From Thalassotalea sp. PP2-459 (GTDB taxonomy: Bacteria; Pseudomonadota; Gammaproteobacteria; Enterobacterales; Alteromonadaceae), in the NCBI RefSeq assembly GCF_001913705.1, contig NZ_MKQD01000029.1, forward strand, positions 1 to 64,000: a stretch of DNA of 64,000 nt. Reading direction: 5' to 3'. Under the pieces are notes generated by a model. It did not search any database. It had not been told where the DNA came from and saw nothing but the letters and a program-made list of their open reading frames with translations. Within the stretch, counting starts at the first letter, position 1. Each line of letters opens with the position of its first letter. Shown here in pieces: positions 43,365 to 47,332 of the stretch. Position numbers and translations under genes: made by a program.

Positions 43365-43840
43365 TGGAAAAAATTCTTGTCAGTGCATGTTTAATGGGAG
43401 ATCTGGTTAGATACGATGGTGGACATCAGCAGTTAGTCAATAAAACGTTCGAACAATGGCAGCATGAAGGTAGGCTAGTGAAGGTGTGCCCTGAAGTGGT
43501 GGGCGGGTTATCAACACCTAGAGCGCCGGCTGAAAGAGTGTTAAAGGACAATTTAGTAATAGATGTATCAGGAAAAGATGTGACTCACGCTTTTACCCGA
43601 GGGGCAAATATCGCGCTGTCGATTTGTCTTGAGCAACAGATTAAATACGCCTTATTAAAAGATTCTAGCCCTTCTTGCGGAAGCAATACCATTTATGACG
43701 GGCGGTTTACTGGTAGCAAAATATCAGGGGTGGGTTTAACGACCGAGCTACTACGACAACATGACATTGAAGTTTATAGTGAAAATACGGTGTTATTATT
43801 AGCTGAAAAGCTAACACATAATGAAAAAAAGTTTAGCTAG
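43364..43840 (+). CDS. DUF523 family protein
   Basis: The 158-residue protein has the family motifs ILVSACLMGDLVRYDGGH, VCPEVVGGLSTPRAPAE and LKDSSPSCGSNTIYDG with conserved cysteines that could bind metal or a cluster. Function is not established. It is coupled to the gene before it and converges on the GGDEF gene with an 8-bp overlap. Confidence 0.92.
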   Translation: MEKILVSACLMGDLVRYDGGHQQLVNKTFEQWQHEGRLVKVCPEVVGGLSTPRAPAERVLKDNLVIDVSGKDVTHAFTRGANIALSICLEQQIKYALLKDSSPSCGSNTIYDGRFTGSKISGVGLTTELLRQHDIEVYSENTVLLLAEKLTHNEKKFS

Positions 43841-44843
43841 CAACAGTAATTTTGTTACTGCTATGGCGCTGCATATCGACTACTAAAGTACGTGTATAAT
43901 TAAGTACCGTATCGATATTCTGCGATAAGGTAAAATCATTTACTCCCATTGAGATCGTCATATGGGGCAACCTGACACCAGATTTGCTACTTACGAAGCG
44001 AAGCTTTTCAACACCTTGGCGTATTTTTTCGGCAATTTCACTGGCAATATTACGTTCTACTTCGGGTAATAAAATTAAAAACTCATCATGACCGGAACGT
44101 ACAGGCAAACCGCTATCACCTACATAACTTCCAATTTTGTTGGCTATTTTTGACAATAATACATCGCTTATTAAACCGCCAAACTTTTCGCTTACTAAAG
44201 ATAGCTTATCAACATTAACAACAATAGCCGCCACTTGCTTGTTAGGGTCTTCAAGTGTCCATTGTTCTAAGTTTTTATTTAATGCCTTGCGATTATATAA
44301 ACCCGTTAACGGATCGAGGTAAATATCTTTTTTTATCTCGGCCAGTTCAGCTTTTAATAACTGTGATTGCTTTTTAGATATTATCAGTTGGTTAGAAAGT
44401 TGCTGTTGCTTCTGACGAAAACTTTTTGACGCTTGTTCGATTTGTTGAATAGCGCCAGTAATGGCTTTTTGATTATTAGATTTCAGATTAACGATATTGT
44501 GATCAAGCTTTTTCAACAGAGTATTCGCGCAATTCATCGACTGTTGATTATTATTCGCTAAACTATCTACTAATTCATCGATGTCTGTAACAATTTCTTC
44601 CCTAAACGTACTTTGGCCTAAAATATATTGTTTATATAGCTCTTGAATAACATATTCGTCTAGCTTTTTGCCTAAGGATAAATGTTGTTTTATTTGTTGG
44701 TTTAACGTTGGGTTTTTACCAATAATATATTCATAACAGATGGCGTAATTTATTGGAGATGCAGGAAGATGCCATTGCTGCAACTGCTTTATAGTCAGTG
44801 TTGATGTTTGCTCTGCTTTTTTGATGGAATCATGGTATTGCAA
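43833..44843 (-). CDS. GGDEF-domain protein with degenerate active site
   Basis: The 336-residue protein has an N-terminal helical region (LTIKQLQQWHLPASPINYAI, ...), a long coiled coil, and a GGDEF fold (DPLTGLYNRKALN onward). The signature is R249-S-G-H-D-E-F instead of R-x-G-G-D/E-E-F, and the metal loop reads VNVDKLSLVSEKFG rather than DIDxFKxxND. Catalysis is therefore doubtful; it may bind nucleotide or act as a scaffold. I start it at a TTG (MQYHDSIKKAEQ) because GAGGGGATGGG lies just upstream; an ATG at 44969 would add an unlikely hydrophobic extension. A cyclic-di-GMP riboswitch lies about 420 nt upstream on the same strand. Confidence 0.82.
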   Translation of the reverse strand: MQYHDSIKKAEQTSTLTIKQLQQWHLPASPINYAICYEYIIGKNPTLNQQIKQHLSLGKKLDEYVIQELYKQYILGQSTFREEIVTDIDELVDSLANNNQQSMNCANTLLKKLDHNIVNLKSNNQKAITGAIQQIEQASKSFRQKQQQLSNQLIISKKQSQLLKAELAEIKKDIYLDPLTGLYNRKALNKNLEQWTLEDPNKQVAAIVVNVDKLSLVSEKFGGLISDVLLSKIANKIGSYVGDSGLPVRSGHDEFLILLPEVERNIASEIAEKIRQGVEKLRFVSSKSGVRLPHMTISMGVNDFTLSQNIDTVLNYTRTLVVDMQRHSSNKITVAS

Positions 44844-44976
44844 AATTACCCATCCCCTCAGTAAATACGAAAAATAAATTGTTATTGTTATAAGTTCATT
44901 CTCTAGTAATTTATAAAAAAGTGCTAGCGTTAATCGCAAATAAATGGAAATAAATAATACCATTTTCACCCAAAGG

Positions 44977-45094: not shown

Positions 45095-45222
45095 TTCTTA
45101 GACGGAATGGTATTAATGTTGTTCATTGAGACTTCGGTGAATAAAAAATTTAAGCGTAAACGGTGTAGTAGGTTTAAGGGGACAAGGGAGCACGCAAAGC
45201 TAGTGCTAAAAAGAAAGATATA

Positions 45223-45260
45223 ACATAGGAAAAGCCTCAATAGACAAGCCCCCACTATGT
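45223..45260 (-). terminator. Candidate expression-platform hairpin after the riboswitch
   Basis: On the minus strand ACATAG and CTATGT pair, followed after one mismatch by GGGGGC with GCTTTT (four G-U pairs), and the hairpin is followed by a U-rich tail (TATATCTTTCTTTTT). It begins about 8 nt after the riboswitch core, where a ligand-controlled terminator would be expected. The G-U content makes it moderate evidence. Confidence 0.5.
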
Positions 45261-45261
45261 C

Positions 45262-45346
45262 TAAATTCGGTAGTTCCGCTGCCATAGGTTTCCCCGTAGA
45301 CCGGTAACTTTGCGTCTCTAGCTTTCGCTAGATTTGCCCTTATCGA
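45262..45346 (-). ncRNA. Cyclic-di-GMP-I (GEMM) riboswitch
   Basis: The minus strand shows the GEMM-I order: AGGGCAAA; a perfect 6-bp hairpin TCTAGC/GCTAGA closed by a GAAA tetraloop; GACGCAAAG; ACCGGTCTACGGGG; and the 3' core GGCAGCGGAACTACCG. These match the invariant nucleotides of class-I cyclic-di-GMP aptamers (the GNRA loop, the GACGCAAAG joining strand, the tetraloop-receptor side and the final GCAGC..ACC arm). Transcription would run toward the degenerate GGDEF gene. Whether ligand turns expression on or off cannot be read directly. Confidence 0.88.
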
Positions 45347-45366
45347 GCTTTAGTAGCTCAAGAGAC

Positions 45367-45394
45367 ATTATATTCATAGATTTTTTCTTGTAAA
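45367..45394 (-). promoter_or_regulatory. Sigma-70 promoter for the riboswitch transcript
   Basis: On the minus strand TTTACA (-35) and TATAAT (-10) are separated by 16 bp. The expected start is near 45360, about 15-20 nt before the riboswitch core, which supports the riboswitch reading and its orientation. Confidence 0.75.
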
Positions 45395-45475
45395 CCATAA
45401 ATATTGTTTATATGGTAATCTTTATTTGTTTTTTAAATTAAACCCTTGAAATAAAGGGAATTGAAAACTCATCCG

Positions 45476-47332
45476 ATGATTTATAAATTGTTTTTCTACA
45501 GTGTATTTTTGTATGTTTTTAGCGCGTCTCTTCTGGCGGAAGATACAGCCAGTACAGATATATTACAGAATATTGCTGACGTTGATCGTTTCTACGAGGG
45601 CGATAGAGAGTCAATGCCTTATCAACGTGTATTAACACTTTCTCAACGTGTGATTAAGCAACGCCATTTGTATCATAATAACACGCTAGCAAAAGTGTTT
45701 ACTTTACTTGCAGATGCAGCGACAAATACTGGCGATCTCGCAAAGTCATTACAATTTGCTCAAGATGGGGTCACGTTATTGGGCGTTGACCAACAAATAA
45801 ATTTAAGGCTTTTACTAAAAGTTGCAGCAGGATATTACTACAAAGGTCAGTTTAATAGCGCCAAAGAAGTTGCTGAACGAGCGGTGTCACAGGCACAAGC
45901 ACTTAACCATGTTGAGTTATTAATCAATGCGTTAAGTTATCGGGCGATGGCCAACGCGTTATTAGCTGAACATGATAATGCATTAACTGATATTGAACGC
46001 ATTGAGCTGTTACTTGCTGAGCAACCTAGGTTGTCAGATCGTATTTCTTTAATTAATTTATTGGCTAACGCGCATTATTATTTGGGAGACGATAATACCG
46101 CTATTTCTTTATATAATAAGGTGTTAAAACTTAGGTTTGAGTTGAATAAAGTGGCTAACATTGATCAAACCTATTATCACTTAGCGCGTTCTTATTTATC
46201 ATTGGGCATGTTAGACGATGCTTACAATGCCTTTTGGGAAGCCTTAACCTACGCCCAAAAGAAACAAGCCCCTATTCGTATTGCTTATGCTCAGTCGGGC
46301 TTAGGGAAAGTACATTTTTTACAAACAGATTATCAACAAGCGTTAAACTTATTTAATAAAGCTGAATTGGGTTTTCGTGGTTACAATTTAACGCAACCGT
46401 ATTTAACGGTTTTATTAGATTTAGCAAGAGTGCATGAAACATTAAATAACAAGTCAGAAAGTTATAGGTATTTAACGAAAGCTCAACGTATTTCTGCTTC
46501 AACTGAACTGACGGAAAAGCAAATTGTGTTACATTTAATGGCGGCAAAAATGTACCGTGATCTTGGTCAATTCGATAAAGCCTTAGCTGCTTATTTTCAA
46601 TATACTGAGCAGGAAAAAGTGTTTAAACATTACGGCGAAAAAAATGTACTTCAAGAGGAAAAAAATCACGCTACAAGCCAAAAAAGTCGAAATTTTTCAT
46701 TACAATTTGCCAACCAATCAACCTTAACGCAAGAATATCAATTCAAATATCAACAACAACAAAAACTGATTAGTTTATTGATATTTTTTGTTATTATTTT
46801 GTTTGTTTTTTGTCTTTGGTTAGGAGTAAAGCTAAGAGCACTTAAATTAAAATACGTGTATGAAGAAGCGGAAAAGCCTATCGACTATATCGCTGGACCT
46901 AGCTACAGTAAAAAACTGTACCAATATCATTATAAAATGGCGCGAAAATTCGAGTACCCGTTAACTATAGGTTACTTCACGATTGAAAATTGGAATGAAC
47001 TGACGTTTCAGTTTAATAAAAAAACCGTCGCAGAAGTCACATTGGCGTTATTTGAATTAATTTACAACGCTAAGGAAGAGTTTGTTCAAGTAGGGGTGAT
47101 AAACGATGGCGAGTATTTATTTTTGGCACCACATCAACGGCCAGAAGAGTTACAGCAAAATTTAGAAAAGCTTGCCCAAGCAGTTAAACTACAATTCTTT
47201 GCAAACCTAGGTGAGTTTTCATTAAAAGTTCGGTACGATTGCCAGTCTCCCAGTGTGCAAGATATCGACCCATATATCTTTTTATCGCGAATAAGTGATG
47301 CAACTGTTCCTGATAGTCGTTTTAATGTGTAG
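45476..47332 (+). CDS. TPR membrane protein with GGDEF-like remnant domain
   Basis: The 618-residue protein has a signal peptide (MIYKLFFYSVFLYVFSASLLA start), a helical TPR-type solenoid (about 45-400), a TM segment (LISLLIFFVIILFVFCLWLG) and a C-terminal domain of about 140 residues. That domain follows the order of a GGDEF fold (helix, TIGYFTIENWNEL strand, then VGVINDGEYLFLAP where RxGGDEFxxLLP would be) but lacks every catalytic residue. I prefer the ATG; a TTG five codons upstream has AAAGGGAA almost touching it. It is coupled to the next small gene and lies beside the riboswitch on the other strand. Confidence 0.8.
   Translation: MIYKLFFYSVFLYVFSASLLAEDTASTDILQNIADVDRFYEGDRESMPYQRVLTLSQRVIKQRHLYHNNTLAKVFTLLADAATNTGDLAKSLQFAQDGVTLLGVDQQINLRLLLKVAAGYYYKGQFNSAKEVAERAVSQAQALNHVELLINALSYRAMANALLAEHDNALTDIERIELLLAEQPRLSDRISLINLLANAHYYLGDDNTAISLYNKVLKLRFELNKVANIDQTYYHLARSYLSLGMLDDAYNAFWEALTYAQKKQAPIRIAYAQSGLGKVHFLQTDYQQALNLFNKAELGFRGYNLTQPYLTVLLDLARVHETLNNKSESYRYLTKAQRISASTELTEKQIVLHLMAAKMYRDLGQFDKALAAYFQYTEQEKVFKHYGEKNVLQEEKNHATSQKSRNFSLQFANQSTLTQEYQFKYQQQQKLISLLIFFVIILFVFCLWLGVKLRALKLKYVYEEAEKPIDYIAGPSYSKKLYQYHYKMARKFEYPLTIGYFTIENWNELTFQFNKKTVAEVTLALFELIYNAKEEFVQVGVINDGEYLFLAPHQRPEELQQNLEKLAQAVKLQFFANLGEFSLKVRYDCQSPSVQDIDPYIFLSRISDATVPDSRFNV

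Follow-up and report, generated by a model that had tools for sequence, protein, structure and literature searches.

A conserved c-di-GMP-I aptamer RNA with a complementary 3′ arm in the Colwellia–Thalassotalea group: a candidate two-state RNA gene

The window, a stretch of 64,000 nucleotides from Thalassotalea sp. PP2-459, carries on its minus strand a c-di-GMP-I aptamer that is part of a longer conserved RNA. The RNA has a conserved promoter, stays the same while its neighbour genes change, and has a conserved alternative pairing, predicted by folding, in which its 3′ arm is joined to the aptamer in a long closed structure, the rod. On balance, the RNA is probably an independent gene with two states, not the leader of another gene, in which c-di-GMP bound during transcription would block formation of the rod. 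Its parts are as follows.

45367–45394, minus strand: promoter TTTACA-16-TATAAT of the RNA, from a promoter scan and conservation
45178–45361, minus strand: the RNA, about 185 nt; putative ends, the 5′ end placed from the promoter and the 3′ end where conservation ceases
45345–45359, minus strand: 5′ hairpin P0; in 30 aligned rows, some of them misaligned, pairing reaches 77% of cells
45266–45348, minus strand: c-di-GMP-I aptamer, Rfam RF01051
45337–45344, minus strand: GATAAGGG, 5′ strand of the rod base, from the co-variation test
45317–45332, minus strand: aptamer helix P2 with its GAAA loop, retained in the predicted rod of the window
45308–45315, minus strand: ACGCAAAG, ligand-site strand, whose predicted partner in the rod is the 3′ arm
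45242–45262, minus strand: hairpin H1, from folding, with the GGGGG loop at 45253–45249, the tip of the rod
45223–45261, minus strand: longer hairpin over H1, an alternative fold with a U-rich tail behind it; the candidate terminator of the preliminary description, found only in the window's genus among the relatives folded
45181–45241, minus strand: 3′ arm complementary to the aptamer, holding CTTTGCGT (45199–45192) and CCCTTGTC (45188–45181)

Aptamers of the c-di-GMP-I class bind c-di-GMP tightly and release it slowly, and membership of this class suggests that the aptamer of the window binds c-di-GMP too. The preliminary description had claimed such an aptamer and proposed an Rfam comparison, which bears the claim out: RF01051 matches the minus strand at 45348–45266 over the whole model (1–87) with 79.6 bits, above the gathering score of 35, and an E-value of 5e-14, and it is the sole Rfam match listed around the locus at E up to 1. 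The claimed promoter is likewise present and near-consensus. TTTACA-16-TATAAT (45394–45367, minus strand) is the top one of six promoter-like sites in a scan of 2.5 kb, a number of sites that is not above the shuffle mean of 9.2. All 12 bases agree with TTTACA/TATAAT in 77 of 87 related RNAs, and at no control position do more than 10 of 12 agree; this set consists of 73 distinct RNAs and 14 of the 17 loci found by the covariance model, the other three being excluded as non-members. A transcription start near 45360 would agree with the promoter spacing. Three further c-di-GMP-I aptamers lie elsewhere in the same genome, followed twice by a DUF3718 gene and once by a gene for a PEP-CTERM-motif protein (just below the cut-off), and these three appear to be ordinary gene leaders. 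The small DUF3718 proteins behind two of them are at L002 1657–2016 and L004 1638–1997, and DUF3718-like proteins are also seen, by eye, behind aptamers in relatives.

The RNA is found in many members of a group of related marine bacteria. A TPR homologue lies beside the aptamer in 13 of the 33 loci first fetched, and those loci share a conserved extension after the aptamer. A search pattern of aptamer plus G-loop matched 62 named contigs, labelled mostly Colwellia, Cognaticolwellia, Thalassotalea, Thalassomonas and Litorilituus, with some unspecific MAG names and one Endozoicomonas. Within the window's family (NCBI taxonomy places Thalassotalea in the family Colwelliaceae), the pattern occurs in 84 of 395 genomes, at one place each, and the reversed pattern in none. 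The pattern matched 106 loci; with three set aside for their shortness, these gave 73 distinct RNAs. AGTGGGGGC belonged to the search pattern and is hence invariant in these matches by selection; GGGGGCUU is kept in eight loci (L151–L158) that were missed by the pattern and found by a covariance model. This model, which was built from the 5′ hairpin, the aptamer and the G-loop hairpin and searched with strict filters, matches 72 of 246 family genomes at 89–155 bits, with one copy each, and the next matches do not exceed 74.2 bits. The window scores 145.4 bits (model R1, 45365–45236, minus strand), and the aptamers of 32 other loci score 38–75 bits, with one further match of 17.9 bits. Because of the gap between 89 and 74.2 bits, the class is separable from ordinary c-di-GMP-I riboswitches. 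A looser pattern matched 20 of 394 genomes of the order, against four for a reversed control pattern; ten of the 20 are the RNA in the window's family and the ten outside it resemble chance by eye, so a wider spread in the order was rejected.

The secondary structure of the RNA is well kept. In an alignment of 30 representatives, 94.7% of cells are paired and two-sided changes occur at 14 pairs, compared with 5.9 in shuffles, while 26 of 500 shuffles have at least as many further pair types. In the G-loop hairpin, pairing reaches 99.6% and two-sided changes occur at three pairs. On the 3′ side of a variable stretch, the relatives have CUUUGCGUG and a pyrimidine tract that is nearly free of A to about 20 nt past UUUGC, after which the sequence falls to background. 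Conservation thus ceases at the 3′ end of the RNA in relatives aligned on UUUGC, an anchor that makes only the neighbouring positions of the profile informative. Terminator-like sites after the RNA are not in excess over chance (4 of 72, with 2.2 expected from shuffles). In L151–L156, which belong to one genus, aptamer helix P3b is lengthened by an extra hairpin, whose loop is UUGCGGGGGCUU in some of them, and the arm still pairs around the extension. The short peptide that had been proposed as a product of this locus finds no support: the 67-aa ORF (45285–45082) begins within the aptamer and is without a Pfam match, and by eye its frame meets a stop codon no later than 13 codons past GUGGGGGCU in L007, L012, L016 and L018. 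The proposed unannotated short RNA, by comparison, is supported by the conserved RNA, by the conserved promoter and by the convergent gene downstream in most named loci.

The distinctive feature of the RNA is the arm that can pair with its own aptamer. RNAalifold, applied to the 73 RNAs, joins the tail to the ligand-site strand, and most of the single RNA folds printed are long rods that end in the G-loop hairpin; for L012 a different fold is printed, yet 10.7 pairs are expected between the strand and the downstream half. The 15-nt ligand-site strand has 12.6 expected pairs with the downstream half, compared with 2.9 for shuffled halves. At least five expected pairs between arm and ligand site are found in all 73 distinct RNAs, a level reached by 2 of 24 other c-di-GMP-I loci (26 given, 24 scorable). 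Halves taken from different species fold less well together, by 2.6 kcal/mol (p 0.0003, 18 representatives). When the hairpin is left out, p is 0.026, 0.017 and 0.00075 for 10, 15 and 25 representatives, and with a second split it is 0.013, 0.024 and 0.001 for 10, 17 and 24 representatives. The rod base, formed by GANAAGGG and the pyrimidine tract, co-varies as GACAAGGG/CCTTTGTT, GAAAAGGG/CCCTTTTC and GATGAGGG/CCCTCCTT, with p of 0.023, 0.0011 and 0.0001 for 10, 20 and 37 representatives and 0.50 for three, and a few loci fit poorly. The co-variation tests with few representatives give modest evidence. A role of the pyrimidine-rich tail as an anti-Shine-Dalgarno seed was set aside for the simpler account that it is the partner of GANAAGGG. 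Pairing between the G-loop and the tail under the enforced aptamer, with a mean of 1.3 expected pairs, is not robust.

The rod was predicted at the level of secondary structure, by a model that contains neither tertiary nor ligand energies. Within this model, enforcing the aptamer raises the fold energy above that of the free fold by a mean of 19.5 kcal/mol (sd 4.6, smallest difference 4.4), ligand energy excluded. In growing transcripts the rod pairing takes over around the emergence of UUUGC (at a median of +1 nt from it, between −24 and +36), and the takeover point has a median of 42 nt past the G-loop. Since the rod wins only at this late point and the free fold is so far below the aptamer fold, the choice between the two folds is probably made during RNA synthesis. 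In the proposed mechanism, the strong promoter would give an RNA of about 185 nt composed of the 5′ hairpin, the c-di-GMP-I aptamer, the hairpin with the G-rich loop and the 3′ arm, and the aptamer would be open to c-di-GMP until the arm is synthesized. With c-di-GMP bound, the arm would remain free; with c-di-GMP absent, the arm would fold back to give the closed rod, and signal binding would be lost. The RNA would thereby record the c-di-GMP level at the time of its synthesis. Its output would most likely be that of a free regulatory RNA, whose 3′ arm is exposed or hidden by the fold.

The three elements next to the RNA that bear on its role are listed below.

43833–44843, minus strand: GGDEF gene with the motif GHDEF; the TTG start at 44843 was chosen by eye from relatives, and the listed ORF starts at 44969
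44898–44927, minus strand: conserved block GCACTTT..CTAGAGAAT upstream of the GGDEF gene, from comparison with relatives
45461–47332, plus strand: divergent TPR gene, from the ORF list and Pfam

Both flanking genes had been taken for genes of eroded GGDEF-type proteins. Pfam identifies the minus-strand neighbour as GGDEF (E 2.7e-24), with the motif GHDEF, but the plus-strand neighbour is a TPR protein. A Pfam GGDEF match is absent from the C-terminal part of the TPR protein at E up to 1, and its assignment as GGDEF from a profile alignment was rejected, the alignment being weak (probability 4%, E 0.01). Among 16 distinct relatives the motif of the GGDEF gene drifts: it is GGDEF or GGEEF in five, GHDEF in four (including the window), AGDEF in four, AEDEF in one, GQDEF in one and unread in one. 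The TPR protein resembles, in layout alone, RcbA and RcbB, which are described as TPR partners that modulate c-di-GMP in Vibrio vulnificus in the accessible part of that report (PMC12282931).

The RNA is constant while its neighbours vary. Among the homologues searched for, the closest one downstream is a convergent DUF885 gene in 42 of the 62 named loci, a co-directional GGDEF gene in 13 and neither in seven; five of these seven have less than 330 nt after the RNA. In L097, another of the seven, a more distant convergent gene appears oligoribonuclease-like by eye, and L103, the last, shows none. A gene of oligoribonuclease-like appearance is seen further along the neighbourhood downstream of the RNA in L085 and L066 as well. 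The DUF885 identity was confirmed by Pfam in L006. In several loci the GGDEF gene lies about 2 kb on, behind DUF885, and it adjoins the RNA in the four genomes of the window's genus that were read. Upstream, 57 of the 62 named loci have the divergent TPR gene; of the five where none was found, two have at most 114 nt of sequence on that side. In ten further loci of one genus, a TPR homologue was not found nearby, and DUF885 is present in nine.

The variation in neighbours bears directly on what the RNA controls. Its own promoter and a conserved non-coding body, as looked for in a small RNA, are both present. A conserved co-directional gene downstream, as looked for in a gene leader, was not found, GGDEF being next in only 13 of the 62 named loci. 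Control of the GGDEF gene, as put forward in the preliminary description, was therefore rejected as a role kept in evolution: a convergent gene follows in 42 of the 62 loci, and the GGDEF gene has a separate conserved block upstream, which is probably its own promoter region. The motif CTAGA[GA]AAT of such blocks is found in 11 of 16 loci with an adjacent GGDEF gene and in 9 of 16 with a distant one, with about 0.05 expected in each group; the block bears a poor likeness to a standard sigma-70 site. In the window itself, where the GGDEF gene adjoins the RNA and is co-directional with it, control is possible through the longer hairpin: the ligand-bound aptamer would permit the hairpin 45261–45223 with its U-rich tail to form and stop transcription, and the rod would act as antiterminator. 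The hairpin had been described as a candidate terminator; it is present, at −15.1 kcal/mol, and forms in the window RNA under the enforced aptamer, but the terminator scan gives it no score. Only 5 of 200 shuffles fold as well. Within the genus, the hairpin is identical in a sister species, reaches −15.7 kcal/mol in Thalassotalea marina, where it is similar, and −11.4 in another genome; other folds take its place in all four more distant relatives folded. Since the hairpin is kept at the level of the genus and the GGDEF gene is adjacent in four genomes, an added ligand-dependent attenuator may exist in the window's genus. As an account of the RNA, such attenuation in the window's lineage is improbable, given that DUF885 intervenes in most named loci and that the GGDEF gene has its upstream block in adjacent and distant cases alike.

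The frequent convergent DUF885 gene points instead to an antisense-acting riboswitch, in which c-di-GMP would decide on read-through into DUF885 and so interfere with it. Antisense-acting riboswitches have been reported by Serrano-Gutierrez and Merino in 2023 (PMC9943018); in the accessible text, c-di-GMP is the most enriched antisense family (152 antisense, 2,554 sense), and a Colwellia gene of unknown function (A3Q33_07785) is named as an example, so that the reported cases perhaps include the locus of the present RNA in Colwellia. Terminators between the RNA and DUF885 are not above chance, which fits read-through. However, a convergent gene within 500 nt, though present in most relatives, is absent in the window, whose GGDEF gene is co-directional, and the RNA is kept there and in the 13 loci with GGDEF next although DUF885 is not beside it. 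The DUF885 stop codon lies anywhere between −43 and +448 nt from the RNA (73 loci, duplicates included), and conservation ceases with the RNA. Antisense read-through is thus unlikely, if somewhat less so than GGDEF attenuation. A sponge, that is, an abundant RNA that buffers c-di-GMP, would suit the near-consensus promoter and the complete aptamer, but it makes little sense because the conserved arm destroys the aptamer, and this explanation is very improbable. Action in trans is rated first, antisense read-through second and attenuation of GGDEF in the window's lineage third. The full form of the preferred reading, in which a free-standing second-messenger RNA chooses its fold once during synthesis, acts in trans and is kept across the Colwellia–Thalassotalea group, is put forward tentatively, as a conjecture that falls somewhat short of probable. 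Complements of the H1 G-loop occur at zero to two further places in each of eight genomes, and one is common only to two sister species; the idea that the H1 loop pairs with a trans site conserved among these eight genomes was therefore rejected.

In the literature searched, with subscription journals mostly outside reach, no publication on this RNA or its kind was among the listed results. As a rule, a riboswitch is taken to lead the gene that follows it. Here a well-known aptamer class seems to have given rise to an RNA in its own right, in which the aptamer's constant companion is an anti-aptamer arm. Should the RNA act in trans, it would be the counterpart of a c-di-GMP effector protein, giving c-di-GMP an RNA route to distant genes in these marine bacteria, and annotators who name the following gene as target would be misled at such loci. 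The RNA also offers a natural model of folding decided during transcription.

The c-di-GMP-I (GEMM-I) riboswitches of RF01051 have the same aptamer sequence and structure as the RNA of the window. They usually lead the next gene, whereas this RNA has an anti-aptamer arm that spans the aptamer and neighbours that change. The title of a 2019 study by Pursley et al. reportedly ties the c-di-GMP-I riboswitch Vc2 to a putative small RNA. In Vibrio cholerae, Vc2 sits in the 5′ leader of tfoY, according to the accessible part of one report (PMC7371385), unlike the window-type RNA, which has no conserved leader role. Bc1 of Bacillus thuringiensis is a c-di-GMP-I riboswitch that likewise has a long expression platform, but, as far as the accessible text goes, it is a leader with two intrinsic terminators ahead of genes (PMC11218506). 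The antisense riboswitches of PMC9943018 face a convergent gene, as the RNAs of most relatives do, but the window-type RNA is kept even without a convergent gene; the accessible text of that paper describes neither a stand-alone RNA nor an anti-aptamer arm and does not state the riboswitch class of the Colwellia example. The nearest tested cases are Listeria Rli55, AspocR and SreA, in which, in the accessible part of the source (PMC8079631), a riboswitch aptamer lies within a regulatory non-coding RNA, as is proposed here. These three respond to B12 or SAM, are switched by terminators and have known targets, and SreA also controls its downstream operon (PMC8079631).
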